Shown: one piece after another, positions 20,849 to 38,494 of the stretch | Layout of the letters: every line of letters starts with the position of its first letter | How positions within the stretch are numbered: position 1 is the first letter of the stretch | DNA from: Methylopila sp. 73B | GTDB taxonomy: Bacteria; Pseudomonadota; Alphaproteobacteria; Rhizobiales; Methylopilaceae | Reading direction: 5' to 3' | DNA: 64,000 nt | Assembly (NCBI RefSeq): GCF_000526315.1 | Contig: NZ_JAFV01000001.1 | Span: 3,102,501 to 3,166,500 of the forward strand | Program-made: the position numbers and the translations under genes | Notes under the pieces: model-generated | The model's input: only the letters and a program-made list of their open reading frames with translations | Database searches by the model: none | What the model was told of the DNA's origin: nothing

Positions 20849-20872
20849 CTGGTGCTGCGAGAGAGGATTGAA
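20849..20872. repeat. attL core repeat (24 bp)
   Basis: This sequence is identical to 38419-38442 and equals the 3' end of tRNA-Thr including its encoded CCA (CTGGTGCTGCGAGAGAGG..., 24 bases in all). It is the displaced tRNA end left by integration. The rest of the tRNA is absent on this side. Confidence 0.92.
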
Positions 20873-20940
20873 TTCACAACTTCAAAATGTGTTTGTGTAA
20901 TCTCAATGGCTTAGTTGTATGACTGGACGGGTTTTGTTAG

Positions 20941-20972
20941 TTTGTAAGTGGCGATCTTTGTAAGTCGCCACT
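20941..20972. repeat. Paired TTTGTAAGT repeats and hairpin near attL
   Basis: TTTGTAAGT occurs at 20941-20949 and 20957-20965. The second overlaps an inverted repeat AGTGGCGA (20947-20954) with TCGCCACT (20965-20972). The same TTTGTAA word occurs twice next to attR, so these are candidate integrase arm-type sites. Confidence 0.5.
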
Positions 20973-21035
20973 CGCCGCGGAAGTGATATCCGCGCGGGGC
21001 GTCGGCATCGCCGATCCGACCCCCTCCTTGAGGCC

Positions 21036-21926
21036 TTAGAGCGGCCAGACTAACGGTTGCCAATGCTCGGGATTAGCTGACGCCCCAAATTTCGTAACTT
21101 CAACCGATGCGGGGCCAATCTTCTCAGTTACCGCTACAACAGCGTCCCGCCCGATAACATCACCGACAACAACATGATATTGGGGTGCGTGAGTATTAGA
21201 TAACAATCTAACGCTGGCTAATAAATATAGATGGTCTATTGTTCCGAATGCAAACGTCGATAAATCGTAACCGCTTTTATCATTAGCTTGTTGAGCATCC
21301 GTCGAACCTCCAACAATATAAGAAACGTTATGCTTTGTGCCCATGATGTAGGGCAGGCAAAATGGATGAAAATCGTTTGGTGTAAGAGACGTCAAGACTT
21401 GACAGTAGCCGATTTTCGCAATCATTCTTCCGAATTCATAAGGTGAATGTCGGAATTTAAAGGTTAACTTTCCTGGATATAATTTTTCTAAAGCTTTAAG
21501 ACGTAGATTGTCATCTATAACAACTAATTCCCATGATGCGGAAGTGTCGAGTGTCACAGGCGCACCTATCAGTATTCCAGCCCGCGAGATCCTGTAAAAT
21601 ACCATAGGTCCCGGATGCTGCGCGCTCGGTATCTGACGAACCAATGAGGGATCGTCAGGGTCTGGCATTTCGATGTAGCCCTTACGCCTCTTTTTATGGC
21701 GGCTAGGTGCATTGAACGCCTCGCGAGCGTCGCCCCACATGCCCCGCAGCACGGCTGTCTCAAAACGAGAAGTCATCTTGGCGCAATCGCGACAACTTGC
21801 TCTTTCCAGAATGTGCGCGCCGCCAAGCGCGAAGGGCATGACGTGCTCGTCGGTAAGTTCGACGTCATCCTTTCCACAATAGATGCACGCGCCGAACGAC
21901 GGATAACGTGTAGGACCGTGCGACAT
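21036..21926 (-). CDS. HNH endonuclease family protein, low-GC cargo
   Basis: This 296-residue protein has an N-terminal HNH-type core: ACIYCGKDD with paired Cys, then TDEHVMPFALGG carrying the DEH active-site start, and SCRDCAKMTSRFE with a second Cys pair. The remaining 230 residues are a mixed alpha/beta domain I do not recognise. Base composition is clearly more AT-rich than the rest of the window, which points to separate acquisition. It is the outermost gene at the attL end, where satellites and prophages often carry defence or exclusion cargo. A role in phage defence is inference. Confidence 0.75.
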   Translation of the reverse strand: MSHGPTRYPSFGACIYCGKDDVELTDEHVMPFALGGAHILERASCRDCAKMTSRFETAVLRGMWGDAREAFNAPSRHKKRRKGYIEMPDPDDPSLVRQIPSAQHPGPMVFYRISRAGILIGAPVTLDTSASWELVVIDDNLRLKALEKLYPGKLTFKFRHSPYEFGRMIAKIGYCQVLTSLTPNDFHPFCLPYIMGTKHNVSYIVGGSTDAQQANDKSGYDLSTFAFGTIDHLYLLASVRLLSNTHAPQYHVVVGDVIGRDAVVAVTEKIGPASVEVTKFGASANPEHWQPLVWPL

Positions 21927-21968
21927 GTGCTGCCTAGCTCGCGAGATCGTGGGGCAGAGAATACAGGA

Positions 21969-21991
21969 ACGCCCGCCTTCAAGGCGGGCGT
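21969..21991 (-). terminator. Hairpin after the early gene operon
   Basis: An 11-bp perfect inverted repeat (21969-21979 with 21981-21991) lies 9 bp after the stop of the 108-residue gene. The minus strand continues with a moderately T-rich segment. It probably ends the operon before the HNH nuclease gene. Confidence 0.6.
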
Positions 21992-22000
21992 CTGTCGTCG

Positions 22001-22327
22001 TTAGGCAGCCTCGGGCTGCACTCCGTAGCTATCGCTTCGATATTGATCGCGCGCAGCCCGCACAAGCTGCAGCATGGCGGGCGACAGCTTCTTAGGCGGC
22101 TGGCCGATCCGTTCGCCGAATTGATCGGCCATGGCCCAAAGCCGGCGACGCCTCTGCAAAGCCGCAGTGCGTTCATTCCGCCACACACGGTTCGCGGGAT
22201 CGAGGATGATCTTCGCGTCGGCACGCGCGAGGTCGACGGCCAAGAGCTTCGCGCTCGCCTTAAGGTTCTGACGCCGCAGCGAGGGCGTCAGAACCGCCAG
22301 AAAGCCAGCGGGCGGGAGAGCGGTCAC
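22001..22327 (-). CDS. Element-encoded hypothetical protein, 108 residues
   Basis: This basic helical protein has no recognised domain. The start is GTG and overlaps the upstream 68-residue gene as GTGA, which supports a coupled pair. The central segment (RTAALQRRRRLWAMADQFGERIGQPPKKL) could bind nucleic acid, but this is only composition. It ends 10 bp before a terminator hairpin. Confidence 0.6.
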   Translation of the reverse strand: MTALPPAGFLAVLTPSLRRQNLKASAKLLAVDLARADAKIILDPANRVWRNERTAALQRRRRLWAMADQFGERIGQPPKKLSPAMLQLVRAARDQYRSDSYGVQPEAA

Positions 22328-22530
22328 GCCCTAGCCTCCTGCACGATTTCCCTCAGCAGCATCTTCGCAAGCGTCTCCGCAGGCGTTCCGCCGAGCTGCG
22401 TCATCTTCGTGCGGCCCGTGCTCTTTTCGCGGACCGTGATCATGCCGTCGCTCACCTCATACGTTCCGAAATGGGTGATGACGCCGCCCGAAGGCTTGGT
22501 GCTCGTTTCGATCGAGATTTCAAAGCTCAT
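22324..22530 (-). CDS. Element-encoded small protein, 68 residues
   Basis: This short protein (MSFEISIETSTKPSGGV start) is predicted mostly beta in its first half and helical at the end (ETLAKMLLREIVQEA). No family is recognised. It overlaps the next gene by 4 bases (GTGA). The ribosome site is weak. Confidence 0.6.
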   Translation of the reverse strand: MSFEISIETSTKPSGGVITHFGTYEVSDGMITVREKSTGRTKMTQLGGTPAETLAKMLLREIVQEARA

Positions 22531-22600
22531 CGTTTAGTCTCGTGGTGCTGGCCGCAGCGCGCCAACGCTCGCGGCTGGTTGAGGTCTGCTAGGCTTCAGG

Positions 22601-22628
22601 ACGACGCCGGCCGAAAGGTCGGCGTCGT
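22601..22628. terminator. Hairpin between early genes of the element
   Basis: A 12-bp stem with one G-U pair (22601-22612 with 22617-22628) and a GAAA/TTTC loop lies between the 164-residue and 68-residue genes. On the plus strand it is followed by TTTCTC. It may separate two transcripts on the minus strand. The 110 bases between the genes hold nothing else recognisable. Confidence 0.55.
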
Positions 22629-22641
22629 TTCTCGTGGGGAC

Positions 22642-23136
22642 TCAGTCCAAGCCGACTTCGCCCTTGACTGACGTCGCCTCGAAGTCGCGGCGCGTCCTCT
22701 TGGTCAGCCCGCGCTTGATGGCGTCGAGCTTCACGGCCTCTCGGAGGGCGGTCGCTTTCGCCGCCGGGTCCGTGAGGTCCGCATCCTTCAGCCGCTCGAT
22801 GGCGGCGTTGATCTCCTGCCATTTGAAGGCGTTGACGACGGCCGCGATCAAGCTGGCGGCCTCCGCCAAGTTCTCGACGGCGCGCTCTGCGTCCTTCCAA
22901 TCGCTTCGCCATCCGATCGTCACGCCGATTTCGGCAAGCAGTTCTTCGGCCCTCGCCCACGCCGGGCCGGGAGCGTCGAATAGCCCCCGCTCTTCGAGGT
23001 CGATCACGTCGTCGGACATCGTGAAGGCGGTGAAGTCGCCGATGATGTAGTCGGTCGCCGCGTCGGGCATCGTCGCCCTAGTCTGTTTCAGCCGAGCGCG
23101 GCGCTCACGCGCTCGCTCAGTCGACGATTTGGCCAT
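22642..23136 (-). CDS. Element-encoded hypothetical protein, 164 residues
   Basis: This highly charged, mainly helical protein starts with a basic segment (MAKSSTERARERRARLKQTR) and continues with an acidic region and amphipathic helices. No domain is recognised. The ATG at 23136 has a good GAGGAA site. Immediately upstream is a palindromic operator-like repeat, so it is probably the first gene of a regulated transcript. Confidence 0.65.
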   Translation of the reverse strand: MAKSSTERARERRARLKQTRATMPDAATDYIIGDFTAFTMSDDVIDLEERGLFDAPGPAWARAEELLAEIGVTIGWRSDWKDAERAVENLAEAASLIAAVVNAFKWQEINAAIERLKDADLTDPAAKATALREAVKLDAIKRGLTKRTRRDFEATSVKGEVGLD

Positions 23137-23151
23137 CTCGTTTCCTCAGTC

Positions 23152-23184: not shown

Positions 23185-23226
23185 GCGTGGAGCGCAAGAT
23201 GGGTCAGCCGATTTTCTTGCAGGCCC

Positions 23227-24717
23227 TCAGGGACTCGCCAGCGCCCGCTTCAGCCGGGCCGGCAGTTGGGAGCCCGAAGGTCCCGAACGCCCGCCCTCGG
23301 CCCTCCCTGAGTCACGCAGCCGCCAAGGCGGCGTCCTGCAGGCGCAGGTGCTCGATCGTGGCGCGGGTGACGTCAGGAAGGATCGACTCGGGCCACACTT
23401 CGCCCACCTCGCCGAGCGCCCGCATGATCGCGTCGCGGTCGAAGTCGCCGGTGACAGGGCACGGCTCAAGGCCGGCGGCGACCACGGCTGCAAGCAGCTC
23501 CGGGCGGGGCTCCACGCCGGCACCAGCGAGGGCGCGCGCGGCGCTCTGCCAGCTCGGCGGGGCGAGGGCGTCCACAAGCTGGTCATAGACGGCGTCATCA
23601 ATGAAGAGGTCAGGCACTGCGGTAGTTCCCCGATGAGTGATGACGCTTTGATCAGTCCGTTCGTTGAAGACGTCAACCGTATTTTGGTTACGTAGAAACA
23701 CGTAGATGACAGCAAGTAAGTCACTAAAGACTTATCTTTATTTCGTCCTTTCTGGCTTTCGTTAATTCGTCCACGCCGGGACGGGGCGTAATTGCTGCGC
23801 CACGCCTCATAGAGACGCTTGGCCTCGCGCCCGACGTCTTGGGTGTAGCTGATCGCCTTCCCCTGATAGCCGAGGCTTCGGAGCACGCGGCACCGATCGC
23901 GAAGCGCTCGCAGGCCGGGACGGGCAAGGCGCACGTCCTTCGCGACGTAGGCGATCCAGCCGGCGTCAGGGTCGGGGCGAACCTGCGCCATCTTCGGCAT
24001 GCCGCCGCCGCCCGCCTTCCTGAGCGCCCTGCGCGCCCGCGCACGGGTCCGCTTGTCGGTCGGGAGCGTCAGCAGCCCGTGGAGATGCGGGCGGCCATCC
24101 TGCGTTTCCTCGATCACGACGACGAAGGGGATCGTCTGCCCGAACTCACGCTTCAGGTGGTGCGCCACGCGCCGGCGCAGCCAGTCGAGCGCCGAGGGCT
24201 GATGGAGCGCCTTGGCGGCGACGTCAGGGTGAAGGTTCAGGCTGAAGTCGCAGAGCGTCCCGAGCGCCTGCGCGCCGGCATACAGCCAGTCCAGTAGCTC
24301 GCCCTCGGTGATCTCGTCCCACGGGGCGGGGGTGCGATGGCGGACGACACGGGGCGCGCCGGTGGTAGGGTCTTTGCGGAGGCTCGGGCCTTGGAAGATG
24401 TCGCTGTAGTGCTGCGGGGACTTGGTGCGCTTGGGCTTGGTGGTGGTGAGCGTGGGGGTGTCGAGGGAGGCTAAGAGGGCGTCTATGGAGGTGACGACAT
24501 CTATTATTACTGAAGCGACGTCCTGAGCGCCCTCCTGAGCCGGCAGCGGAGTCCCAAGACGATCACGGGCAAAGCGTCCGTCGCGGAATAGGTCCGAACG
24601 GTGCCGCCGATTTACGAATTTCCGAACTTTCGACGGTGCGCGCACCGGCGCGAGCGTCGTCGCAAGCACAGTTTCGCCTGCGCTCGGCGCGTGGATCGTG
24701 GTATGATTGAGGGGCAA
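23227..24717 (-). CDS. HUH-type rolling-circle replication initiator (Rep-like)
   Basis: Residues 150-310 carry the three motifs of single-tyrosine HUH Rep proteins: motif 1 FSLNLHP (158-164), the metal-binding HLH at 211-213 in PHLHGLL, and Tyr257 with Lys260 in GWIAYVAKD. Such enzymes nick an origin and start rolling-circle replication. The start is unsure: the frame opens at a TTG (24717), and residues 1-130 look disordered. The last 180 residues are probably not native, because from about 23770 the frame runs antisense-like through the next gene; another frame offers the plausible end GVDELTKARKDEIKISL, stopping at 23724, so a frameshift is possible. Confidence 0.65.
   Translation of the reverse strand: MPLNHTTIHAPSAGETVLATTLAPVRAPSKVRKFVNRRHRSDLFRDGRFARDRLGTPLPAQEGAQDVASVIIDVVTSIDALLASLDTPTLTTTKPKRTKSPQHYSDIFQGPSLRKDPTTGAPRVVRHRTPAPWDEITEGELLDWLYAGAQALGTLCDFSLNLHPDVAAKALHQPSALDWLRRRVAHHLKREFGQTIPFVVVIEETQDGRPHLHGLLTLPTDKRTRARARRALRKAGGGGMPKMAQVRPDPDAGWIAYVAKDVRLARPGLRALRDRCRVLRSLGYQGKAISYTQDVGREAKRLYEAWRSNYAPSRRGRINESQKGRNKDKSLVTYLLSSTCFYVTKIRLTSSTNGLIKASSLIGELPQCLTSSLMTPSMTSLWTPSPRRAGRAPRAPSLVPAWSPARSCLQPWSPPALSRALSPATSTATRSCGRSARWAKCGPSRSFLTSPAPRSSTCACRTPPWRLRDSGRAEGGRSGPSGSQLPARLKRALASP
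23312..23701 (-). CDS. Element-encoded hypothetical acidic protein
   Basis: This frame encodes up to 129 residues of acidic, protein-like composition (PDLFIDDAVYDQLVDALAPPSWQ and DFDRDAIMRALGEVGEVWPE). No domain is recognised. Two starts are possible: GTG at 23701 and GTG at 23617, the latter with a GGGGAA site 9 bases upstream and beginning at the better-looking part. It lies inside the 3' extension of the Rep frame in a different register and is judged the real gene there. Confidence 0.6.
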   Translation of the reverse strand: MFLRNQNTVDVFNERTDQSVITHRGTTAVPDLFIDDAVYDQLVDALAPPSWQSAARALAGAGVEPRPELLAAVVAAGLEPCPVTGDFDRDAIMRALGEVGEVWPESILPDVTRATIEHLRLQDAALAAA

Positions 24718-24730
24718 GAGAGAACTGCTG

Positions 24731-24760: not shown

Positions 24761-24770
24761 TTCCTTTTGG

Positions 24771-25250
24771 TCAGTGCACCTCGCCGAGCGCGGCGCGGAA
24801 CTGCCGGACGATGTCGGTCGCGAGGTCGGTCGTCATCGTGAATTTCGTCTCGCGGTCGGGCGACTTCACTTGAACGATGAAGCCTCGCCCCTTCCGAACG
24901 ACGGTGAACGTGTGCCCGCCCTCGACGGCAAGGCGGTGCCCGCCGTCGTCGGCGCGGTCGCGCACGTTCTGAATAATCATCGCCAGCGCGCGCGCCTTCG
25001 AGGCGTCGCTGAAGTCGACGACGTGCGTCTCGTCCTCGCCAGCGAGCAGACGCAGCGCGCCACCCTCCGCGCGGGCGAGGCGGAAGCCGGGCGTGTGGTC
25101 GAGCGTCACGTCGGCGGCGAACTCGGCGTTGATCCAGCGGGCGATCAGCTCGGCGTTCGAGACGCCGTGAACTTCGGCGAGGTGATTGATCTGCGCGATG
25201 CGGCTGGCGTGCAGAGAGACAGTGGAGCGGGGGCGGCTGGCGGTCGTCAC
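24771..25250 (-). CDS. Ribbon-helix-helix-like DNA-binding protein of the element
   Basis: This 159-residue protein begins with a short strand and two helices (RSTVSLHASRIAQINHLAEV then VSNAELIARWINAEF) that fit the ribbon-helix-helix pattern of CopG/Arc-type regulators. The remaining 110 residues form an unrecognised alpha/beta domain. The start is GTG at 25250 with a GAGGG site 6 bases upstream; the frame extends further but without support. Direct repeats just upstream could be its own operators. It probably regulates the element's transcription. Confidence 0.6.
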   Translation of the reverse strand: MTTASRPRSTVSLHASRIAQINHLAEVHGVSNAELIARWINAEFAADVTLDHTPGFRLARAEGGALRLLAGEDETHVVDFSDASKARALAMIIQNVRDRADDGGHRLAVEGGHTFTVVRKGRGFIVQVKSPDRETKFTMTTDLATDIVRQFRAALGEVH

Positions 25251-25428: not shown

Positions 25429-27939
25429 TCAGTAGCGACGGCGCGCCGTGTCCAGAAGACCGCCCGGCCGCAGGGACTTCAGCAGTTCCGAATTTACAAG
25501 ACCGCGCATCTGGCCTTCGACTTCCGCGCCGATCCGCTTGGCGAGGTCGTCGTTCTCCTCCAGCGTGCCGCCGCTGGCGTTGACCGTGATGCTCGGCGCC
25601 ATGGTGATGACGTTGGAGGTCGGCGCAGCAGCGCCGGCGGGCGCTATCGGCCTCGGCATGATCGGAGTGGGTAACGCCGGCAGCGCAGCCGGGACGAAGG
25701 ACGGCGCGCCGACGATGCCGCCATCGGCGTAGCCCTTCGCGCTACGGTGCAGGCGTTCGAGGTTGTCGACGCCGATGCGCCGCGTCGCCTCCTTCGAGAC
25801 GACATACTCGCCGCGATGCACGATGCCGGCCGGCTCATATTTGCCGCCGTCGCCGGTGAAGCCGCCATCGGAGAACGTCAGCAGGTTGGAAAGAAAGCCG
25901 AGGAAGCCGCCGCCAGCGCCGGTCTGGCCTTGAGGCATGGCGAACGCGTTCTGGAAGAGGCGTTGCACGATCATCTCTAGAAGCTGATCGGCGACGCGCT
26001 TCAACGCGCTGCCGAACGCGTCCGCCGCCGAGACGCCAGCCGTAAGGTCGGCGACGAGCCCCTGCGTGGCGTTCAAGCCGATGCCCTCCAGCTCGCGCCG
26101 GGTGCGGGTGAGCTCCTGAAGGCGCTGCTCGCCCGCCTCGCGCTTTTTGTCGACGAGGTCCTGAGCCGCCTTGAGCCGGTAAAGCTCGGCGACCTTGGCG
26201 GCGATGGCCTGTCCCTCCTTCGAGTGCAGGTCGACGCCCGCCTGTTGCAACGCCTGAAGCGTCTTCTGTTCCTGCTCGGTCTTGCCGAGCTGGTCGGCTT
26301 CGAGCCCGAGCGCCTCCGTCACGCGCTTCACGGCTTCGGCCTGCCGATCGGCAGCCTGTTCGGCCTGCGTGCGGGCGGTCTTCTCGGTGTTCAGTCGCAC
26401 CGTGACGTCGTCGCCGGCCTGCGGCTGGCGGCGGAAGCCGAGCACGCGGTCGGCGTCATAAGCCTGCGTGTTGACGCCCTCGGACTGGTTGCCGCCGAGC
26501 ACCTTCACGCGGCCCCGATCGTCATAGCCCTCGAAGAAGCCGACGTGGCCCTGTCCGCCCGAGCCGCGCTTCAGGATGACGATGTCGCCCGCCTGCGGCT
26601 TGGTCGTCTCCTCGCCGTAGGACAGGAACGAGCGGGCGGCGCGCGAGCCGGTGCCCTTGATCCCGCGCTCGGCGAGGATCGCGTTCACGAAGTCGGCGCA
26701 CCACTCGCGCAGCTCTCCAGAGAAGGTCTGTCCGGTCTTGCTGAGCAGCGATCGGATTTCGCCGTCGTTCGCTCGCTCCGTCAGTCCGCTGTAGCGCTTG
26801 GCGGTCTCATAGATCGAGCCCGAGGCCGATCCGACAGGCATGCCCTGCGGCGGCAGCGTGATGTCGTCGAGCTTGCCCGACGCCTCGCGGGCAGACTTGC
26901 CGAGCTTATCGAGCGCGCCGATGGCGGTCGCGAAGCGCGAGCCGACAGCCCTGCCGACGTCCGCGCCTTCGCCCTGGGGGATCATGGTGAGGCCGGCGGC
27001 GGCCGGGTCGCCGCCGAACCAATCGTTCAGCTTGCGGAAGACGACGCTGTTGCCGATCGACGCGAGCCCGCCTTCGAGCATGCTGATGAAGCTGCCGACG
27101 CCCGAGGCCCAATCCTCGATGTAGCCGGCGATCTCGACGACGCCGCTCTTGAAGTTGCCGCTGACGATGTCGACGAGCTTCTGAAACTTCCGGTCCAGCT
27201 CCACGGCCTTATCGACCACGTCATCCTTGATGACGACGCCAGTCGCGCGGGCTTCCTCGCGCAGGCGCGTGATGCCGGCCGCGCCCTGATCGAGGAAGCG
27301 CACGAACTGTTCGCCGCCGGTGCCGCCGAAAATCTCGTCGGAAACGCGGATGCGTGATGCGGTGTCGAGCTGTTTGATCCGGCCGATGATCTCGACGAAC
27401 AGCGCCGCCGGGTCCTTTAGCTTCCGCCCCAACTCTTCGGACGTGTATCTGAGACGCTTGAAAGCCTCCGCACCGGAGCCCCCGCCGTTGAGGGCGAATT
27501 CGTCGCCTCGGATGTTCAGCTCCTTCAGCCCGTCCGTGAGCGCGTCGATACTGACGCCGGACTGCCGGGCAGCGAAGGACAGCTCTTGGAACGCGGCCGT
27601 GCCGACGCCGGCCTTTTCGGCTTCGCGCTTCAGCTCGGCGACACTGCTGATCGCGGTCTTGGCGGCGGCCGTGACGGCGGCGAGCCCGCCCGCCAGCGCG
27701 CCGGCCGCGAAGCCCTTGCCGAAGTCGATGCCCTTCGCTCCGATCGTCGCCAGCGCCCTGTTCGCGTTCTCGGCGGCGGCGCGGGTGTCGCCCTCGATCC
27801 GCTTGCGGGCGTTGGCGGCGTGGTCGCCTACTTCGCGGAAGCCCCGCTGCGACGTAACGGCGGCCTTCTTGAGCTGCTTTTCGAGGCCGTCAATGCGCGC
27901 GTCTACGAGGACGAGAAGGCGCTGTTCTTCCGTAGCCAA
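25429..27939 (-). CDS. Tail tape-measure protein with embedded CHAP-like hydrolase domain
   Basis: This 836-residue protein has an N-terminal coiled coil, a hydrophobic segment (about 74-100), phage tape-measure repeats (GVGTAAFQELSFAARQSGVS at 111-130) and a C-terminal Gly-rich GGYADGGIVG region typical of small-phage tape measures. Residues about 390-505 form a TIGR02594/CHAP-like peptidoglycan hydrolase domain with Cys414 in WCADFV and His465 in GHVGFFEGYD. Tape measures set tail length and help DNA entry; the hydrolase would locally open the wall. TTG start at 27939 has an AAGGAAA site. It follows TerL by 12 bp. No tail tube gene is present nearby. Confidence 0.85.
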   Translation of the reverse strand: MATEEQRLLVLVDARIDGLEKQLKKAAVTSQRGFREVGDHAANARKRIEGDTRAAAENANRALATIGAKGIDFGKGFAAGALAGGLAAVTAAAKTAISSVAELKREAEKAGVGTAAFQELSFAARQSGVSIDALTDGLKELNIRGDEFALNGGGSGAEAFKRLRYTSEELGRKLKDPAALFVEIIGRIKQLDTASRIRVSDEIFGGTGGEQFVRFLDQGAAGITRLREEARATGVVIKDDVVDKAVELDRKFQKLVDIVSGNFKSGVVEIAGYIEDWASGVGSFISMLEGGLASIGNSVVFRKLNDWFGGDPAAAGLTMIPQGEGADVGRAVGSRFATAIGALDKLGKSAREASGKLDDITLPPQGMPVGSASGSIYETAKRYSGLTERANDGEIRSLLSKTGQTFSGELREWCADFVNAILAERGIKGTGSRAARSFLSYGEETTKPQAGDIVILKRGSGGQGHVGFFEGYDDRGRVKVLGGNQSEGVNTQAYDADRVLGFRRQPQAGDDVTVRLNTEKTARTQAEQAADRQAEAVKRVTEALGLEADQLGKTEQEQKTLQALQQAGVDLHSKEGQAIAAKVAELYRLKAAQDLVDKKREAGEQRLQELTRTRRELEGIGLNATQGLVADLTAGVSAADAFGSALKRVADQLLEMIVQRLFQNAFAMPQGQTGAGGGFLGFLSNLLTFSDGGFTGDGGKYEPAGIVHRGEYVVSKEATRRIGVDNLERLHRSAKGYADGGIVGAPSFVPAALPALPTPIMPRPIAPAGAAAPTSNVITMAPSITVNASGGTLEENDDLAKRIGAEVEGQMRGLVNSELLKSLRPGGLLDTARRRY

Positions 27940-31061: not shown

Positions 31062-31343
31062 TCAGAAAAACCACGTCCGATAGGGGCGCAGGAGGTCGCG
31101 GACCACGGCCGGGATCGGGCTCGTCGCGGCGCTGCGGAAGGTCGGCTCGCCGCCCTCGAAGAGATGTTCGGCGACGTGGCGCACGGCTTCGAGCACCGGC
31201 GCGGGCGAAGAGGCGCTAAGGGTCGCGCCGATATAGGACGAAACCCACGCCTCGGCCGCCTCGATCTTGCGCGTCAGCAGCGCGTCGTCGGCGGCGTCTT
31301 CGATGCCGAGGGATTGCTTTACGTCTTCAACTGAAACAAGCAT
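31062..31343 (-). CDS. Head-tail connector protein (gp6-like)
   Basis: This 93-residue protein has the gp6 adaptor pattern: MLVSVEDVKQSLGIEDAADD, then LLTRKIEAAEAWVSSYIG. Twelve or so copies form the ring below the portal. The ATG at 31343 is taken because it starts the family pattern; the frame opens 35 codons earlier across the divergent membrane-protein gene. Confidence 0.88.
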   Translation of the reverse strand: MLVSVEDVKQSLGIEDAADDALLTRKIEAAEAWVSSYIGATLSASSPAPVLEAVRHVAEHLFEGGEPTFRSAATSPIPAVVRDLLRPYRTWFF

Positions 31344-31362
31344 TCGGTAGTTCTCTATCTCC

Positions 31363-31668
31363 GTGAGCACCGCGAATTTGATCGACACGATGTGGAAGAA
31401 GCGCGCTTTCTGGACGCTCCTCGCCCTACACCTTTTGCCAGTTTTCATGTTCTGGCTTATGTTTGTTGGGAGCGATCTACGTCATCCTGGCTTGCTGCAG
31501 TTTGGGATCAATGGACTTTTGATTTCAGCCACTATCGTTCTCATGTGTTCAATTTTCAGCCCATTATTGATCGGACTTCGGGGATTTTTATTTATCGCAG
31601 TCGATGCGATTGCAGCGTTCTTCCTGCGAGATTGGCTATTCGCCTTATCGATCCTAACAGCCAACTAA
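31363..31668 (+). CDS. Small membrane protein, inverted low-GC insertion in the head module
   Basis: This 101-residue protein (GTG 31363, or 92 residues from ATG 31390) has three hydrophobic segments at about 15-37, 45-65 and 70-95. It is on the plus strand, opposite to all its neighbours, and is far more AT-rich. It interrupts the late operon between the HTH gene and the connector gene. No family is recognised. A moron such as a superinfection-exclusion protein is a reasonable guess. No good ribosome site is visible. Confidence 0.6.
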   Translation: MSTANLIDTMWKKRAFWTLLALHLLPVFMFWLMFVGSDLRHPGLLQFGINGLLISATIVLMCSIFSPLLIGLRGFLFIAVDAIAAFFLRDWLFALSILTAN

Positions 31669-31677: not shown

Positions 31678-32067
31678 TTAGGCGCAATCTTGCGCGTGAC
31701 GGGGGCGCCGGTCTTCTATCGAGACGGCCGAAGTTGCTTGATACCCCCCGCCGCTCTTCCTCGGCCCCTTGCCGGTGAGTTGGGGGCGCTCGGTGACGGC
31801 ACGGCCGATCGTCCAGCCGAGACGCAGGCGCGAGCGCAGGGTGAAAGCCGAGAGGCCGCTAAGCTTCGCCCACTCGGCGACGGTGAGGGATCGCCCGTCG
31901 AAGCGATAGCGTTGGCTAGGTCGACCGTGGGTGAGCACGGGGATCTCGATCGCTTCAGCGACAGGCCAGCCGCGACCGATGCGCTTCCTGATCGTCTCAG
32001 ACGGGATGCCGTAATCGAGCGCCCACTCCTCGACGGGTTGGGTGATGCCTTCGTGCGTGAGGATCAC
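31678..32067 (-). CDS. Protein with two tandem HTH-like repeats, coupled to HNH
   Basis: This 129-residue protein has two copies of the same helical unit: ITQPVEEWALDYGIPSETIR...GWPVAEAI (about 8-40) and LTVAEWAKLSGLSAFTLRSR...GWTIGRAV (about 58-95). The pattern W-A-x-x-x-G-I/L-x-x-x-T-I/L-x-x-R is typical of small HTH units found with homing or HNH endonucleases. Its GTG overlaps the HNH stop as GTGA, so it may guide or regulate that nuclease. The C-terminus is disordered. Confidence 0.6.
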   Translation of the reverse strand: MILTHEGITQPVEEWALDYGIPSETIRKRIGRGWPVAEAIEIPVLTHGRPSQRYRFDGRSLTVAEWAKLSGLSAFTLRSRLRLGWTIGRAVTERPQLTGKGPRKSGGGYQATSAVSIEDRRPRHAQDCA

Positions 32068-32429
32068 GACATAGACCTTTCTTCGGATTGGATCGGCCCG
32101 TTGTGGCAAGGCGCGCAGACGGGTTCCCAGTTGGAGCGACGCCAGAAGAGCTTCTGAGCCGTCGCCAGCTCGGGAGCCGTGCGGGCGGCGCTCATGCGGT
32201 GCGGGGTCTTGTGGTTGACGACGGTGGAGGGCGCTCCGCAGCGTGTGCAGACGGGGTGCGCAGCGAGGAAGGCGACGCTCTCGGTGCGCCACTTCGTGCC
32301 ATAGCCTCGGGCATTGGCGTTCGGCCGTGCGCGGTCGTGCTGCGCCTTACGGGCACGCTGACAGGCGCAGACGGTGCCGGCCGCGACGACACGGCCACAG
32401 ACGCAGATGCGGGGCGGACGCGAGGGCAT
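32064..32429 (-). CDS. HNH endonuclease (phage packaging-associated)
   Basis: This 121-residue protein has paired Cys motifs (CVCGRVV...CACQRARK; CTRCGAP...CAPCHNG), YGTKWR and the VNHKTPHR His core of HK97 gp74-like HNH nucleases. These nick DNA and stimulate terminase in HK97-type phages. Its ATG overlaps the stop of the 51-residue gene as TGATG. Confidence 0.88.
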   Translation of the reverse strand: MPSRPPRICVCGRVVAAGTVCACQRARKAQHDRARPNANARGYGTKWRTESVAFLAAHPVCTRCGAPSTVVNHKTPHRMSAARTAPELATAQKLFWRRSNWEPVCAPCHNGPIQSEERSMS

Positions 32430-32584
32430 CAGAACGCCTCGCAGGAATAGGGGTGCGACCGCGCATCCTTGACCGCTTTCAACCGCTTCTGAGCGTCGGG
32501 GGCACGGAGGATGCTTTTCGGTGTTCGGCCGGTCGCGGAGCCGTCATGGAGCGCCCCCGGTAGGACGTGAGAGGGCGTCGTCAT
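32429..32584 (-). CDS. 51-residue protein between TAC-like and HNH genes
   Basis: This short gene is supported by overlaps on both sides: ATGA with the TAC-like gene stop and TGATG with the HNH start. It encodes a polar protein (MTTPSHVLPGALHDG start; KRLKAVKDARSHPYSCEAF end). No family is recognised. The position is that of a tail-chaperone partner, but sequence does not confirm it. Confidence 0.55.
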   Translation of the reverse strand: MTTPSHVLPGALHDGSATGRTPKSILRAPDAQKRLKAVKDARSHPYSCEAF

Positions 32585-33117
32585 GCTAGCGCCCTCAAAG
32601 CTTCGATGCCGGCCTTGCGCTCTTCCGGGGTGGGAAGATCGGCGGCAGCGTCGGTGTTGTCGGTCGCGCCGCCGAACAGCGTCGCCAGCAGCTTGCGGCG
32701 GACGTTGTAGGCGGCGAGGATTTCGGCGGGCGAAGCCGCATAGGTTTCGGCCGGCGTCCAGCCGAGAACGCCCGTGCCGAGGCCGAAAAGCTGGTGGTGG
32801 AGGTCGACGAGGGCGATGGGCTTGCCGGTCGGCTTGCCCTTGCCCGTGGGCTGCTCGCCGAGGTCCGCAAGCTGCGTGAGATGCAGCAGCAGGTCGGGCG
32901 CAAGGCGCATGGCGTCGTGAACGGTGACGGCCGGGACGGTGTCGACGTGCTCGGCAAGGATCGCCGCCGTCGCCGAGATGCTGCCCTGAGCGAGCAGTGC
33001 GCCGAGCTTCTGAAGCCCATGCTCGCGCTCAAGGCGCGTCGCGGCGCGCAGGGTCGGCCGCAGGCGGATGGAACCGCCCCCGATCTCAACCGTGATATCG
33101 CGCGCCGCGAGCGTCAT
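32581..33117 (-). CDS. Tail assembly chaperone-like protein
   Basis: This 178-residue protein has an N-terminal GGGSIRLRPTLRAATRLERE segment similar in style to GTA gp10-type tail assembly chaperones. Its C-terminal part, GWTPAETYAASPAEILAAYNVRR, recalls the small DUF2376-type chaperone that follows gp10 in gene transfer agents, so this may be a natural fusion of the two. The start at 33117 is 2 bases after the capsid stop. The assignment is by pattern only. Confidence 0.55.
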   Translation of the reverse strand: MTLAARDITVEIGGGSIRLRPTLRAATRLEREHGLQKLGALLAQGSISATAAILAEHVDTVPAVTVHDAMRLAPDLLLHLTQLADLGEQPTGKGKPTGKPIALVDLHHQLFGLGTGVLGWTPAETYAASPAEILAAYNVRRKLLATLFGGATDNTDAAADLPTPEERKAGIEALRALA

Positions 33118-33119: not shown

Positions 33120-34271
33120 TCAGCTCGCCTTGATCTTCAGCTTGGTGATCGCCTCGCCGAGCACAACGCGGCCTCCGACACGACGACGAGCGCCGAGCTT
33201 GACGATGCCGTTCGCGTAGCCGGTGACGTCGTCGCGGTGCGGCTGAATTTCGACGCGGTCGGCGATCAGGTAGCCCGACGAGAAATCGCCGAAGGCAATC
33301 GGCGTCGCGCCCGGCGCGATGTTCGGCATGTCTACGGCCTCGACCACGGGCGCGCCCATGATGCTGGCCGGCTGTCCGGCCGAAAGGCCCGGCTGCCAAA
33401 CGTAAGCGCCGTTGCTGTCCTTCAGCTTGCGGACGGTCGCCATCGTCTGACGGTTCATCAGCCAGACGCCGCGCGCGGCATAGGCGGATTTGATGTCGTA
33501 AAAGGTGTCGATCAGATCGTCGCCCTTCAGCGTCGTCGCCGACGTCGTGAAGGTGCGCAATTCCGAGCTCGTCAGGAAGCCTTCGGCCTCAGTCGTGCCG
33601 TTGCCGACCACAAACTGACGAGCTTCCTTCTCGCCGAAGCGCCGGTAGATGTGCGCCGACAGCCACGCATCCATGTTGAAGTTGGCATCTTCGAGCATGA
33701 TCTGAGTGACCGGCACGATCACGGCCATCTCGAAAGCCTTGACGTCGATCTGCTCGAAGCTCGGCTCGCTCTCGGGCTTCGTGCCCGTCTCGCCAGCGAC
33801 CATGCCCGGCTCGACTTCGTTCACGAGGCGCGGGAACTGAAGCAGGCCGCCGGTCATGTTGACCACGGACGCGAAGCGACGCGCGGGCGAGTGCTCGGCG
33901 ATCTTCTCGATAATCTCGGTGCGGACGTCGGGCGGAACGAAGACGCCGCCGGTGGGGTTCGCGCCGGTGAGTCCGAGGGTCTTCAGCTCAGTCGCGTCGC
34001 CGGTGCGCAGATAGCTGTTCAGCGCCTTGCGTTCGACAGACTTCGTCTCGACGTCGCCAGTGAGGATCGCCGGGCGGTTCAGCTTGGCTTCGAGCTTGTC
34101 GAGGCGACCGATGAGCGCCGTGGCTTCGCCGGACTTGGTCTCAACGGCCTTCAGACGGTCGTCGATCGCGTTGCGGAAATCTTCGAGCCCCCTCGCGACG
34201 ACGTCGGTCGCGTCATCGTCGGCGCTCTTGTGTTCGATGTCGCCGAGGATGGCGCGATCGTGGAAAGACAT
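33120..34271 (-). CDS. Major capsid protein, HK97 fold
   Basis: This 383-residue protein has an N-terminal delta-type coiled coil (about 25-66) that is normally removed by the protease, then the HK97 fold: GGVFVPPDVRTEIIEKI, RFASVVNMTGGLLQFPRL and YVWQPGLSAGQPASIMGAPVVE. It builds the icosahedral head. It follows the protease by 15 bases. Length is normal. Confidence 0.95.
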   Translation of the reverse strand: MSFHDRAILGDIEHKSADDDATDVVARGLEDFRNAIDDRLKAVETKSGEATALIGRLDKLEAKLNRPAILTGDVETKSVERKALNSYLRTGDATELKTLGLTGANPTGGVFVPPDVRTEIIEKIAEHSPARRFASVVNMTGGLLQFPRLVNEVEPGMVAGETGTKPESEPSFEQIDVKAFEMAVIVPVTQIMLEDANFNMDAWLSAHIYRRFGEKEARQFVVGNGTTEAEGFLTSSELRTFTTSATTLKGDDLIDTFYDIKSAYAARGVWLMNRQTMATVRKLKDSNGAYVWQPGLSAGQPASIMGAPVVEAVDMPNIAPGATPIAFGDFSSGYLIADRVEIQPHRDDVTGYANGIVKLGARRRVGGRVVLGEAITKLKIKAS

Positions 34272-34286: not shown

Positions 34287-34787
34287 TCAGGTGCGATAGG
34301 CCGAAGCGGCCTTGTGGAGAGCTTCGGCGATCGCGAGAGCGGACGAAGCGGACTTCGCGCCGGTGATCCGTGCGCGAGGATGAGCGGGGTTCTTCACGAC
34401 GCTGATCTCGACGAGGTCGAGCGCGCTGATCACGCGGCCCTTGCCGGCGCGCGGCGTGGAGGCGGTCGTGCGGTAGCCGATGGAAAGTCCGCCGATCTGG
34501 CCGGACGTGATCAGGCCCCGAACAGCTCGGGCGCGGCTGCGCGTCTTTACGTCGAGCTGGCCGGCGACGAGCAGCCCTTCGGGCGTCTCTTTGACTTCGG
34601 TCCAAAGGCCGATGAGGTCTTCGGGATCGTGGGCGAACAGCAGCGGCATGTCGGCGGCGACGTTGAACGCGCCGGGCGTGATGAGGTCGCCGAGCTGGTC
34701 CGGCCCCGCATTGAAGGGCCATGCGACGCCGGTGATCGTGCCGGCCTCGTCGACCGACAGGGCGGCCTTGATCTCAAGCCGTTCCAT
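34287..34787 (-). CDS. Prohead protease (HK97 family, S78)
   Basis: This 166-residue protease has a start EIKAALSVDEAGTITGVAWPFN, a catalytic His in PLLFAHDPEDLIG and a Ser in GLSIGYRT, the S78 pair. It matures the prohead by cleaving scaffold/delta domains. The ATG at 34787 overlaps the preceding stop as TGATG. Confidence 0.92.
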   Translation of the reverse strand: MERLEIKAALSVDEAGTITGVAWPFNAGPDQLGDLITPGAFNVAADMPLLFAHDPEDLIGLWTEVKETPEGLLVAGQLDVKTRSRARAVRGLITSGQIGGLSIGYRTTASTPRAGKGRVISALDLVEISVVKNPAHPRARITGAKSASSALAIAEALHKAASAYRT

Positions 34788-35038
34788 CAGTGCACCGTCT
34801 CGGTCGCACGCGTCTGCAACAGCATCAGGGCGTGGCGCTGCCACGGTGCCCACCGCGTATCGTCAATGTCGTCTGCCGGCAGCTCGACATCCTTGTCGCC
34901 CGCAGAAAGCGCCCGCTCGGCGTCGGCGAGCAGCGTGGCGACGATCGCCCGCCGCAGCGTGGTGATGGCGTGGCGCTCGAAGGCTTCAGTCGAGATGACG
35001 CGGCACAGGCGCAAGAACGCGCCGTCAGTCGAGTGCAT
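34787..35038 (-). CDS. Hypothetical protein between TAC-like and protease genes
   Basis: This 83-residue helical protein (FLRLCRVISTEAFERHAITTLRRAIV) ends with WAPWQRHALMLLQTR. It overlaps the TAC-like gene by 14 bases and the protease by 1 base. In the RcGTA cluster a small orf (g3.5) sits at the same place between portal and protease, but I see no clear similarity. Confidence 0.6.
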   Translation of the reverse strand: MHSTDGAFLRLCRVISTEAFERHAITTLRRAIVATLLADAERALSAGDKDVELPADDIDDTRWAPWQRHALMLLQTRATETVH

Positions 35039-35354
35039 TGGTCGTGTCCTGTTCGGAAGCCGGCCCGCTGTAGAGGGCGGCGAGGAGGTCGGCCGCGATG
35101 AGGAAGGCGGCGACGAGCGGCTTGGTCGCCACGAAGCCGGCGACGATGCTCGCGGCGTCTTCGGCCGGCGTGCCCGCGCCAATGAGCCCGAGGCGCAGCG
35201 TCTCGACGATCTCCGCATGGGCGAAGTGGCCGGTCGGCACGCGATGGATCAGCGAGCCGATCCCGACGCCTGTCGCCTTCTCAAGTTCACCGATGGCGTG
35301 CGGCGTGAGCACGAAGGCGCGCTCGACGTCGAGGGTGGCGCGGAACGGGATCAC
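35025..35354 (-). CDS. GTA gp10-like tail assembly chaperone (TAC_11 type)
   Basis: This 109-residue protein fits the gene-transfer-agent gp10 family: VERAFVLTPHAIGELEKATGVGIGSLIHRV and HAEIVETLRLGLIGAGT. Such proteins normally sit just before the tape-measure gene and help tail assembly; here it is next to the portal. The GTG overlaps the portal stop as GTGA. Confidence 0.65.
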   Translation of the reverse strand: MIPFRATLDVERAFVLTPHAIGELEKATGVGIGSLIHRVPTGHFAHAEIVETLRLGLIGAGTPAEDAASIVAGFVATKPLVAAFLIAADLLAALYSGPASEQDTTNALD

Positions 35355-36580
35355 GCGGCTTCGGCCTCCGGTGCCGATTGGGCGGCCGGGGCCGTGGTGA
35401 TGTTCGGATTGTCGAGGTCGTCGCCGCCGTCGAGCGCCGGGAGGTTCAGGCCCGCGCGGACCTCGTTCTTCGTCATCGCGCCCATGGCGCGATACTGCGC
35501 ATAGGCCGTCGCACGGGTGGCGGCGTCGGCGCGCAGCAGGTCGTCAATGACGAACTCGACGAGATGGGTGCGGCGTTCGTCTTCGCTCAGCAGCAGCCGG
35601 CGGTAGGCGTCCTGCCACGTCCGAAGCCACGGCAGAAGGGTGAGCTGAAGGAACAGCGCGCCCATCTGCTCGGTGTTCCCCCAGGTGGCGCGCCCGAGGT
35701 TGAAAAGCATGCTCGGCGGCACGCGGAAGGCCCGCGCGATCTCGTCGAGCTGGTGCGTGCGCACCTCAAGGAACTGGCTGTCGACGCTGTTGAAGGCGAG
35801 CGGCTGGAACGCCATGCCCTTCTCGAGGATCGCCGTCTTGCCGGACTGCTGCCCGCCATGGGCGGCGTGCCAGCTTTCGGCGATATTCTTCACGCCGTCG
35901 TCGCCAAGGTCTTCCGGGGTCGTCAGGATGCCCGAGGGACGCCCGCCGGCCGCGAACAGACGGCTGGCGTGCTGCTCCATGATCAAGCTGAGCGCGATGG
36001 CCTCGCGGGCGAGATGGACCGGCGACGTGCCCTTGATGCCGTCGAGGCTGAAGGCCGGGATGTGCAGGACTTCGTCGCGCGCGAGGATGCGGTGCGCCGA
36101 GCCGGACGACAGGCGATAGCTGACTTCGCCCGACAGAGCGTCCTGATGGACGGTGACGGCGCGGGGATCGAGGCGCGTGAAGTCATAGACGCGGCCGTCT
36201 TCAAGGCGGTTCGCGAAGGCGTAGCCGTTGCCGTGCAGCAGGGCGTCGGTGGTGAGCTGGGTGCGCAGGGCCGAAGCCGAGACGTCCGCCGACGCGTCGT
36301 CGTGGACAAGCCCATAGGCAGGATGGTCGGAGTCGGGCAGCTTCCCGCCCTTGTCATCGCGGACGTAGAGCTTGGCAGGCAAGTTCCCGACCGTGTCGGC
36401 GATCAGCGAGACGGCGCAGGCGACGGCCGTGCACTGCATCGCCGTCTCGGGCGTGATGACAGGGCCGGCGATCGTGTTCGCGGCGAGGAACTGGTCGAGC
36501 CCCCAGAGATTGAGGATGCTCGGCGCAGACTTCCGCTCGACGGGGCGCTCTCTGCGCCTATGGGATTTCGACTTCGACAA
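35351..36580 (-). CDS. Phage portal protein (HK97 type)
   Basis: This 409-residue protein is a normal HK97-type portal: TAMQCTAVACAVSLIADTVGNLPAKLY, LHGNGYAFANR and RVPPSMLFNLGRATWGNTEQM. The portal ring is the DNA channel of the head. The start is a TTG at 36580; the first 20 residues are basic. It is the first gene of the long minus-strand late operon. Confidence 0.94.
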   Translation of the reverse strand: MSKSKSHRRRERPVERKSAPSILNLWGLDQFLAANTIAGPVITPETAMQCTAVACAVSLIADTVGNLPAKLYVRDDKGGKLPDSDHPAYGLVHDDASADVSASALRTQLTTDALLHGNGYAFANRLEDGRVYDFTRLDPRAVTVHQDALSGEVSYRLSSGSAHRILARDEVLHIPAFSLDGIKGTSPVHLAREAIALSLIMEQHASRLFAAGGRPSGILTTPEDLGDDGVKNIAESWHAAHGGQQSGKTAILEKGMAFQPLAFNSVDSQFLEVRTHQLDEIARAFRVPPSMLFNLGRATWGNTEQMGALFLQLTLLPWLRTWQDAYRRLLLSEDERRTHLVEFVIDDLLRADAATRATAYAQYRAMGAMTKNEVRAGLNLPALDGGDDLDNPNITTAPAAQSAPEAEAA

Positions 36581-36696
36581 GCGCTCAATGGGGCCTTGAT
36601 TGACTACCCCATTATTTTATCAAAGCACAACTCGGTTGGCGCCTGATTTATTTGCTGCCAGAGCGGCAAAATTTGCGTTCTTCCGTCTCGTTTTTG

Positions 36697-38328
36697 CTAG
36701 CGCGCATCTCCACCTATGCAGTGCGAAAGGTCATAGTGTGGAAACTTTGCTATCACCTTCGCCTTCGCCGAGATGTCGACGTCGCCATAATTATCGCCAG
36801 CCGTTTTGGCGGCGTGTCCTTCGATGGCGTCAATTACGCGGCTGTTCACGTCGAGGCCGAACGACACGCTCTTGAAGCGGTGCCGCCATCCATGGTTCGG
36901 CTGAACTTCCATGGGGATCGACGGCACGACTTCCCTGATCCACATCGCCATGCGTTGCGCGGCGTATTTTGAGGCGTGTCGCGTGCCACGGCGTGCAGTC
37001 TTGCCGTTGAAGAAGAGCGGGCCCGGCTCGGCGCGCTTCACGAAGTCGAGGAAGCCCAACTCGACGAGCTGCCGGTGCAGGGGCACGTCGCGAAATTTGC
37101 CCGTCTTGACCGACCCTGCGTCCGGCGTGATGCGCATGAAGGTGACGCCATCTTCGGTCATGATGTCCTGCGTCCGAAGCTGCGTCATCTCCGAGATGCG
37201 CGCGCCTGAGAAGGCGCAAAGCCACGGCGTCCAGCGCTTCGCCGCCGTGACGTGCTCGCTCTCGCGGGTCGCGGGGTTGTCGGAATGCGCCGGCTGATAG
37301 GCGCGAGCTGCCTTCAGGATCGCGTGAGCCTCGTCGAGGGTGAAGCCCTTCGGCCTGTCGAGGGTCTTCTTCGTAACGCGAATCTTGATGCCGGCCGCTG
37401 GATTGGTCGTGCCCTCGGGCAGCTTCCTATTGTCGATCGCCCACGTCAGCACGGCCCGCAGCGCCGCGATGTTCGTGTCGCGCACGGTCTTCGGCGACAG
37501 CTCTTCGAGAAGCTCGTCCTTCCAGTCGAGGACGTTCTGTTTGCTGATGAGGCGGGCGTCATCGTGCCCGAGGAAGCGGACGAAGTTTTTGAAGCCGGGC
37601 GTCCAGCGCTTGCCGGCTTCGGCTCCACCGCCCGACTTCGCCAGCTCCTTCAGATAGCCCGCGAGCAGCCCGAGGATCGACACGGCGTCGCCCTTCGGTT
37701 GAAGGGCAGCGGCCGGTTCAGCTTCCGTGAGAAGACGGTGCGTTGGCTCTGCCTCGGGATCGCCGTCGTCGCGTTCGGCCATTCGCGAAAGCGCCTCATA
37801 CTCGACGCCAGCGAGGTCACGGGCGGCCGATCGGTAGCCCGGCGAGCCATAAGCCAGATTGGCGTGACCACGTTGGCGGTAAGCACCGATGATGTCGCCG
37901 ATCGTCGCCTCGATCTGCTCGTCGGACGCGGTGCCGGCCCTGATCTCACGCAGCGACGAAACGTATGTGTCATCGATGCCGATGCGTGCGAAGGCGGGAA
38001 GGTGGTCTCGCATCACTGCGTCTAGCTGGAGCTGCGACGCGTAGTGACCGCGCGCGAACTCGCCGAGCGACATGGGGCGGTCGCGCATCACGGCCTTCGC
38101 AGGTGCGTGGTCGGCGGCGTGCTTCGCCCTCGCCCAATCGAGCTTGTCGAGGAAGCGGGCGATGACGGCATTGTGGTTGCGCTCCGCGACCGTGAAGCTG
38201 TCGCCATGGGCGTGGCGCAGTTCGCTCTTGCCATCGAGATAGGGGCGCAAGGGCGCGGGGATCGCGAGCCGCGTGTAGTGCCGCCCGTCGAGCGTCTGGA
38301 AATTTTTGAGCCCGGCCCTGCGCGCCAT
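36697..38328 (-). CDS. Tyrosine recombinase integrase
   Basis: This 543-residue integrase has an arm-binding/DUF6538-like N-terminus, a SAM-like core-binding domain (about 215-305) and a catalytic domain with Arg377 (GARISEM), His479 and Arg482 (NHGWRHRF), His505 (GHAAKT) and nucleophile Tyr514. It integrates the element at tRNA-Thr and lies 90 bp from attR, transcribed away from it. All catalytic residues are present, so it is likely active. I saw no excisionase, though a small gene could be missed. Confidence 0.94.
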   Translation of the reverse strand: MARRAGLKNFQTLDGRHYTRLAIPAPLRPYLDGKSELRHAHGDSFTVAERNHNAVIARFLDKLDWARAKHAADHAPAKAVMRDRPMSLGEFARGHYASQLQLDAVMRDHLPAFARIGIDDTYVSSLREIRAGTASDEQIEATIGDIIGAYRQRGHANLAYGSPGYRSAARDLAGVEYEALSRMAERDDGDPEAEPTHRLLTEAEPAAALQPKGDAVSILGLLAGYLKELAKSGGGAEAGKRWTPGFKNFVRFLGHDDARLISKQNVLDWKDELLEELSPKTVRDTNIAALRAVLTWAIDNRKLPEGTTNPAAGIKIRVTKKTLDRPKGFTLDEAHAILKAARAYQPAHSDNPATRESEHVTAAKRWTPWLCAFSGARISEMTQLRTQDIMTEDGVTFMRITPDAGSVKTGKFRDVPLHRQLVELGFLDFVKRAEPGPLFFNGKTARRGTRHASKYAAQRMAMWIREVVPSIPMEVQPNHGWRHRFKSVSFGLDVNSRVIDAIEGHAAKTAGDNYGDVDISAKAKVIAKFPHYDLSHCIGGDAR

Positions 38329-38340
38329 CGTCCGACCCGT

Positions 38341-38360
38341 TTTGTAACCCGCTTTGTAAG
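38341..38360. repeat. TTTGTAA repeats near attR
   Basis: TTTGTAA occurs at 38341-38347 and TTTGTAAG at 38353-38360, 59-78 bases inside the attR core and just upstream of the integrase start. The same word is repeated near attL. Arm-type integrase sites would be expected at these distances. Confidence 0.5.
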
Positions 38361-38419
38361 CGAGTCTGGTCGGCTTCTGTTAGAGGATCAAGGGGCTGAA
38401 GGGCTTCTTGGCAAAAATC

Positions 38420-38494
<75 letters not shown>

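Follow-up and report, generated by a model that had tools for sequence, protein, structure and literature searches.

A Probable Capsid-Forming Satellite at a tRNA-Thr Gene of Methylopila sp. 73B and Its Proposed Chimeric Tail

An integrated element of 17.6 kb occupies positions 20849-38442 of the window analyzed here, a stretch of 64,000 nucleotides from the alphaproteobacterium Methylopila sp. 73B (contig NZ_JAFV01000001.1, positions 3,102,501 to 3,166,500), where it lies at a tRNA-Thr gene. Its status as a satellite is well supported by open head genes, a conserved gene order, purifying selection and empty insertion sites in sister genomes. The element probably forms its own capsid and puts its own tape measure protein (TMP) on the tail tube and tip of a helper, which would result in a chimeric tail. 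In its operation it probably resembles the capsid-forming phage-inducible chromosomal islands (cf-PICIs), with a substitution of tail parts like that of the phage-inducible chromosomal island-like elements (PLEs).

In the proposed cycle, induction would lead to excision from the tRNA-Thr gene and to replication by the element's own replication protein (Rep), while its own head would be built and DNA packaged by its own small and large terminase subunits (TerS, TerL) and HNH endonuclease. The satellite would supply the inner and head-proximal parts of the tail, namely the TMP, two tail assembly chaperones (TACs), the tail terminator and the neck. The TMP, held by the two chaperones, would set tail length and bring a wall-cutting CHAP domain, and a helper with a flexible tail would give the tube, the tip with its receptor-binding proteins and lysis. 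The resulting particle would combine the head of the satellite with a tail of mixed origin.

Boundaries and Insertion Site

The element is a real, bounded unit. It is delimited by a 24-bp direct repeat, one copy at the 3' end of the tRNA gene (38419-38442) and the identical distal copy at 20849-20872, and the tRNA-Thr (GGT) that served as integration target (38420-38494, minus strand, detected by ARAGORN) is kept intact. In a search of 13 genomes of the genus, own genome included, the right flank was matched at 97% in G002 and 95% in G008, and the left flank picks up approximately 0.7 kb (G008) and 1.7-2 kb (G002) beyond the tRNA-Thr gene. In both sisters (stretches L212 and L213) the tRNA-Thr is intact, its flanks match and the element is absent between them. 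Since these sites are empty, the 17.6 kb represent an insertion, which bears out the element in tRNA-Thr that a sequence-only reading of this DNA had proposed.

Head, Packaging and Mobility Genes

The 24 open reading frames (ORFs) of the element and two flanking ORFs were scanned against Pfam and PHROGs. All assigned genes are on the minus strand. Read from the integrase, the order begins with a tyrosine integrase (543 aa; 36697-38328; phrog_1 E 3.9e-25, PF00589 just under the cut-off), the portal (409 aa; 35351-36580; PF04860 E 2.4e-94), the chaperone-like protein TAC11 (35025-35354), an 83-aa protein with no significant Pfam or PHROGs profile (34787-35038), the prohead protease (34287-34787, with a longer start possible at 34853; PF04586 E 3.5e-18) and the HK97-fold major capsid protein (383 aa; 33120-34271; PF05065 E 3.1e-69). 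Then come a second chaperone-like protein, TACb (32581-33117), a 51-aa protein without profile match and with homologues in the related loci L039 and L040 (32429-32584), the HNH endonuclease (32064-32429; phrog_2323 E 9.3e-18) and a DNA-binding-like protein of helix-turn-helix (HTH) type (31678-32067), assigned by eye and matching an HNH endonuclease family, phrog_3377, at E 1.3e-18. Four neck proteins follow: a gp6-like head-tail connector (31062-31448; PF05135 E 6.9e-12), an HK97 gp10-like neck protein (30647-31060; PF04883 E 2.1e-7), a gp17-like tail terminator or completion protein (30249-30662; PF11367 E 9.7e-17, phrog_176) and the head closure protein Hc1 (29929-30252; PF05521 E 4.4e-16). 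TerS (29531-29932; PF05119 E 1.9e-27) and TerL (27952-29553; phrog_9 E 3.6e-140) lead to the TMP, after which the order ends with a ribbon-helix-helix (RHH)-like gene, a Rep of ORF2/G2P type, small proteins and, in an AT-rich end, an HNH_5 protein. All genes for head, neck and packaging are open. The profile matches thus agree with the sequence-only reading as regards the head and packaging set, and the phrog_1 and PF23343 matches as regards the element's own integrase and Rep.

Tail Genes in the Element

The same profile searches revealed three proteins that the sequence-only reading had overlooked. Directly after TerL, the ORF at 25429-27939 (minus strand) encodes a TMP of 836 aa, in the centre of which lies a CHAP-type wall hydrolase domain (phrog_10574 E 8.6e-102; PF05257 E 7.7e-9). 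It is the largest gene and makes up 14% of the element. Residues 288-524 also match phrog_1259 ("baseplate hub subunit and tail lysozyme") and the protein matches three "endolysin" PHROGs; these hub/lysozyme and endolysin matches are read as its CHAP domain and C-terminal part. A tail-less element is ruled out by this gene.

The other two proteins are inferred to be tail assembly chaperones. TAC11 (109 aa) is of the GTA-gp10 type, GTA standing for gene transfer agent, and matches PF11836 "Phage_TAC_11" at E 7e-18 as well as phrog_8985; its AlphaFold model shows two short strands and helices (pLDDT 90.1). TACb (178 aa) matches phrog_7493, with PF09550 and PF11836 both below the cut-off, and its model is mostly helix (pLDDT 89.2). 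It starts 2 bp after the capsid stop, the slot that the tail tube gene takes in some relatives. Either protein as a hidden tail tube was considered and is disfavored by the mostly helical models of both. TAC11 is moreover present in 39 of the 44 loci that have a tube gene, so it is not the tube in those loci.

Apart from the labels carried by TAC11 and the TMP, the Pfam and PHROGs scans gave no match to a tail tube, tip, fibre or separate lysis gene in the element. The claim of no tail genes other than those of the neck fails for the TMP and the two chaperone-like proteins. An autonomous siphophage would have tube, tip or hub, receptor-binding and lysis genes, and this set was not found in the element.

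A Family of Related Elements in Alphaproteobacteria

The element belongs to an alphaproteobacterial family and is not a single relic. The starting searches were a DNA search of the own genome, which found other capsid genes, and a TMP search of the genus, which found matching loci. Eight regions were compared with the element. Its gene order recurs in four of them: L036, which lies in the own genome, and L039, L040 and L041. In L042 the surroundings of the TMP homologue differ, and visual inspection assigned L037, L038 and L043 to prophages and a GTA-like cluster. The tRNA-Thr sites of G002 and G008 lack the island. A search with TACb gave 64 loci in genome contigs; in IMG/VR it gave 217, and the best 80 of these were used. 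By record title, 58 of the 64 are alphaproteobacterial, three are metagenome-assembled genomes named only Proteobacteria and three are Pseudomonas. Genes were called in 147 loci (the window, L036, L041 and 144 new ones) by a simple codon-usage caller trained on the window, which may miss genes of other composition, and the three Pseudomonas loci, with ordinary phage order, were set aside, leaving 144. Some elements are recorded twice (L044 = L108 and L041 = L091, for example), so counts refer to records and not to independent events.

Portal, capsid, TerL and TMP occur together in 84 of the 144 loci, window included, and in all 84 they follow the order portal-capsid-TerL-TMP with the TMP within three genes of TerL; the TMP being itself one of the four markers, this figure shows position and not retention. 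A phrog_158-like tube gene is found in 26 of the 84 and a gpI-like tail assembly gene in 18. TACb matches at E <= 1e-5 were obtained in 26 of 397 genomes of the order, own included (18 of them at E <= 1e-28), and in 6 of 289 genomes of the class, where the five besides the own genome are weak or partial. In 50,697 phage records TACb was not matched at E 0.01; portal identity is approximately 37% in the best rows listed, and none of the 1,300 records that match part of the TMP covers more than 80% of it. A close relative that adds a tail-tip module to these genes, a finding named beforehand as evidence against a satellite, was not seen among these loci.

A second member of the family lies in the same genome: L036 (G000:C1 931256-949319), 18 kb long, sits at a tRNA-Gln gene with a 22-bp repeat at its 3' end and encodes a TMP of 1116 aa with a lysozyme-like stretch recognized by eye. 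In L036 and L041 a major tail protein (phrog_158) stands between capsid and TACb, and L036 also has a gpM-like minor tail protein (phrog_14); the window, L039 and L040 gave neither match. Of the 85 family loci tested, 5 have repeats of 17-67 bp at tRNA genes, with spans of 14.1-18.1 kb, and as many of these loci end early a missed repeat says little. Evidence for mobility thus comes from the empty sites in two sisters, the second member at tRNA-Gln and these repeats.

Two variants were also observed. In a subgroup that includes L049, L052, L075, L119, L133 and others, Bradyrhizobium among them, a gpI-like gene lies between portal and TAC11, the neck1 gene comes after TerL and a second TAC11 is often present. 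In G353, G304, G582 and G597 the TACb matches fall in two pieces (N and C halves), as if TACb joined two chaperones that other genomes encode separately or with a frameshift between them.

Distribution of the Tail Tube and Search for a Tip

Capsid and TACb occur together in 124 loci. A tube gene is present in 41 of them; in 45 the two genes are less than 60 bp apart and the locus has no tube match, and likewise without tube match are 16 loci with a gap of 60-299 bp and 22 with a longer one. Many of the 22 hold a family of 125-150 aa that in other members is found beside tube genes and whose representative matches phrog_5707, of unknown function. The gap protein of L149 and L150 (169 aa) is tube-like by eye and was scored as tube on the tree. 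In a quick portal tree of 101 rows (37 with tube, 64 without) the tube label needs 6 changes against a shuffled mean of 30, at least three of them forced by strong branches, and the four nearest rows to the window are all tube-less. As the presence of the tube tracks lineage, the tube-less state is not a recent decay.

For the tip, the unlabelled proteins of 60 aa or more that lie within the structural block or immediately behind it, 231 in all, were grouped into 135 clusters and 108 representatives were scanned, singletons below 75 aa being excluded. These gave matches to a gp25-like baseplate wedge, to a tail fibre of 88 aa in L110 and to a gpI-like tail assembly protein. No hub family was seen among the 25 shown of the 67 PHROGs and the 25 shown of the 28 Pfam families matched. 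Hidden Markov models of tip proteins from the resident GTA and prophages, profiles of low power, found no tip protein in the family except two gpM-class matches.

These results bear on the idea that the element is a complete minimal phage whose tube and tip are made of unrecognized proteins, which is highly improbable. It would draw on the several small proteins without profile match and on the one PHROG that labels TAC11 a tail tube protein. Against it, helical structures are predicted for TAC11 and for TACb, which occupies the tube slot, and a separate lysis gene was not found. The unassigned proteins of the window measure 51 to 206 aa, and the largest without significant match, the RHH-like protein (159-206 aa depending on the start), is small for a siphophage hub. 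Within the structural block of the 84 loci, unlabelled proteins do not exceed 241 aa; larger ones beside the block are mostly host genes by eye, and L041 and L091 have one of 532 aa that is helicase-like by eye.

Variation and Selection in the Tape Measure

The TMP emerges as a changeable part of these elements, with a recognized wall-cutting domain in a minority, the window among them. Its median length is 746 aa in 58 tube-less loci versus 920 aa in 29 tube-bearing ones. From 85 TMPs clustered into 68, 58 were scanned for domains, which gave 7 VanY, 1 M15_4, 4 Hydrolase_2, 1 CHAP and 1 phage lysozyme match (several of these may share a protein), and 21 PhageMin_Tail, 13 TMP_3 and 2 TMP_2 assignments. 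Between the window and L044 (in G008), residues 1-374 are 90% identical, with nonsynonymous (dN) and synonymous (dS) divergence of 0.067 and 0.273, and residues 522-834 are 51% identical. The N-terminus of the TMP is under purifying selection. Ratios (dN/dS) are also low for portal (0.21), HNH (0.15) and neck1 (0.18) against L044 and for TerL (0.21) against L045.

An ordinary cf-PICI-like satellite could instead take complete helper tails, the TMP and chaperones being leftovers of an ancestral phage that stay outside the particle. Whole-tail capture is the mode published for cf-PICIs (PMC10690885), and the additional tail genes of some relatives suggest an ancestral phage from which genes were lost. 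We regard this account as unlikely, given that the TMP keeps its place in the 84 loci (a matter of position and not of retention), that its N-terminus is under purifying selection, that the largest gene of the element is still open and that TMPs belong to different Pfam families, as if replaced rather than lost.

A degenerate prophage, its tail genes lost and on its way out, was the alternative put forward by the sequence-only reading. Such prophages have broken or partly deleted core genes and no conserved reduced form. This explanation would account for the missing tube and tip genes, which full phages with similar modules have. It is very unlikely in view of the head genes, none of which is broken in the window, the order conserved in 84 of 84 four-marker loci, the same reduced set across many genera, the few tube changes on the portal tree, the low dN/dS values and the empty sites in two sisters.

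Possible Donors of the Tail

Several possible donors were recognized by eye in the genome. Two are prophages with flexible tails, at about 0.67-0.70 and 3.87-3.89 Mb; the others are a Mu-like prophage and, near 1.84-1.85 Mb, a GTA-like cluster with its PF13550 protein in a 1340-aa frame. Apart from L036, the genome gave no phrog_158 match.

Gene transfer agents are conserved, non-mobile chromosomal clusters with a complete tail. The element differs from them by its integrase, att repeats and empty sites, and the GTA-like cluster is separate. The host's own GTA could be the tail donor in place of a phage, a possibility that is weakly supported and to which we give a slim chance. Iterated g10-, g10.1- and g11-like profiles of the resident cluster, genes named from their order, reach 136 TAC11, 132 TACb and 84 TMP proteins of the family. 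Of the 18 genomes whose TACb match is strong (E <= 1e-28), 17 have a g15-like gene, versus 249 of 379 others (one-sided Fisher p 0.006), and outside the genus the figures are 12 of 13 versus 241 of 371 (p 0.03); the "strong" threshold was picked after the fact and the test ignores phylogeny. In addition, G474 has a strong TACb match without a g15 match, and the gpI- and gpM-like tail genes of some members point to phage helpers.

Weighing the Chimeric Tail

Several observations weigh against a satellite TMP on a helper's tube and tip. Helper, induction and particle were not observed. Both the PF11836 description and phrog_8985 call TAC11 a "tail tube protein". The TACb and TAC11 models have no match in the Protein Data Bank (Foldseek, E <= 0.001), solved chaperones included, so the chaperone role rests on the name of the Pfam model and on family context. 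Tip proteins outside Pfam and PHROGs could escape the scans, and in a control the tip profiles failed to find each other across GTA and prophage. The fibre match of L110 and the gp25-like wedge mean that a few relatives carry extra tail parts. Finally, dN/dS against L044 reaches 0.60 for the whole TMP, 0.76 for the capsid and 0.87 for the RHH-like gene. The chimeric tail is nevertheless the reading that we favor.

An extension to the whole family is improbable as it stands. It would be a graded series in which tube-less members borrow tube and tip and tube-bearing ones the tip only, all setting their own tail length with a private TMP, some with a wall-cutting domain, and some finishing on a host GTA tail instead of a phage tail. 

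The natural series of members with and without a tail tube would allow a direct test of which tail parts the helper must give, and would let one ask what is gained from self-supplied parts in terms of length, wall digestion and escape from anti-helper defences. The family also suggests that some "prophages" and viral contigs of 14-20 kb in Alphaproteobacteria are satellites rather than defective phages.

Other Genes of the Element

Beyond the TMP, on the minus strand, lie the RHH-like gene, assigned by eye (24771-25250; 23 matches in the 147 loci, window included), and the ORF2/G2P-type Rep (23723-24717; PF23343 E 1.2e-6). The Rep frame remains open on to 23227, far past the homologous part, and overlaps a small recurrent gene in another frame. 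A Rep frameshift in the window was considered for this over-long frame and rejected, as the frames of L040 and L036 are likewise open there. A small protein with an ALGExGxIWPxSI-like motif (23312-23617) has 38 matches in the family, window included, and recurs near the Rep gene. It is followed by a protein without assigned function and with homologues in five other loci (22642-23070) and two small ones without assigned function in the Pfam and PHROGs scans (22324-22530 and 22001-22327). The HNH_5 protein (21036-21926; PF14279 E 2.3e-8) is cargo-like and lies in the AT-rich end at 21001-22000, where the GC content is 50.5% versus about 65-70% nearby; this end is probably recent cargo. A scan for promoters and terminators gave nothing decisive, with four of five promoter-like matches in the AT-rich end, and a search for anti-phage genes returned a single match, 28 residues of the HTH-like protein to mad1 (E 3.3e-5).

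Comparison With Known Satellites

No description of this alphaproteobacterial family was found in the literature searched, the scope of which left out most subscription journals, so that one may be in print. Among known systems, cf-PICIs rely on the tails of helpers and have their own genes for capsid, connectors, terminases and HNH (PMC10690885; see also PMC11389934). The element resembles them in having its own portal, protease, capsid, connectors, TerS, TerL and HNH and a tail that would need a helper. The signature genes of cf-PICIs include AlpA and Pri-Rep (PMC10448857). Neither an AlpA homologue nor a Pri-Rep initiator was matched in the Pfam and PHROGs scans of the element's proteins, which carry an ORF2/G2P-type Rep instead, and for this reason the element is not classed as a cf-PICI. 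It also differs in its TMP and two chaperone-like proteins, in the tail tube that part of the family has and in the nearly exclusive alphaproteobacterial origin of the relatives found. The cf-PICI type proposed by the sequence-only reading is well supported as to satellite status and needs revision as to a whole helper tail. The legend of Extended Data Fig. 10 in PMC12987554 indicates putative tmp genes for a sampling of cf-PICIs.

Other satellites share part of this gene set. Those of Escherichia coli with capsid, decoration, TMP and baseplate component likewise combine a capsid with a putative TMP in the absence of most tail genes; they lack, as far as PMC10448857 describes them, the terminase, protease and head-tail adapter genes that the element has. 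MulchRoom and MiniFlayer, satellites of Streptomyces phages, have their own capsid and packaging genes and depend on helpers as well. They differ in that no known tail component is reported for MulchRoom, there is no obvious replicase and the helpers are virulent (PMC10690885).

The closest parallel for the tail is provided by the PLEs of Vibrio cholerae, for which chimeric tails were reported in 2026 as a feature of this one satellite family (PMC12987554). According to that report, PLEs encode a TMP and a TAC and use the tube and baseplate of the helper, as shown experimentally; PLE11 virions contain the TMP and baseplate hub protein of the satellite, and deletion of tmp lowers transduction by 96% in PLE1 and 99% in PLE4. 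The element has genes for a TMP and two chaperone-like proteins, which would take the place of those of the helper. PLEs take over the capsid of the helper and remodel it (PMC10945586), rely on contractile helper tails and have a gene for a baseplate hub protein; the element has its own head gene set, and no hub was found in it. The mechanism proposed here would thus have a demonstrated precedent in PLEs, with TMP-bearing cf-PICIs already noticed, and if true it would carry the principle over to a different bacterial class and to satellites with heads of their own.

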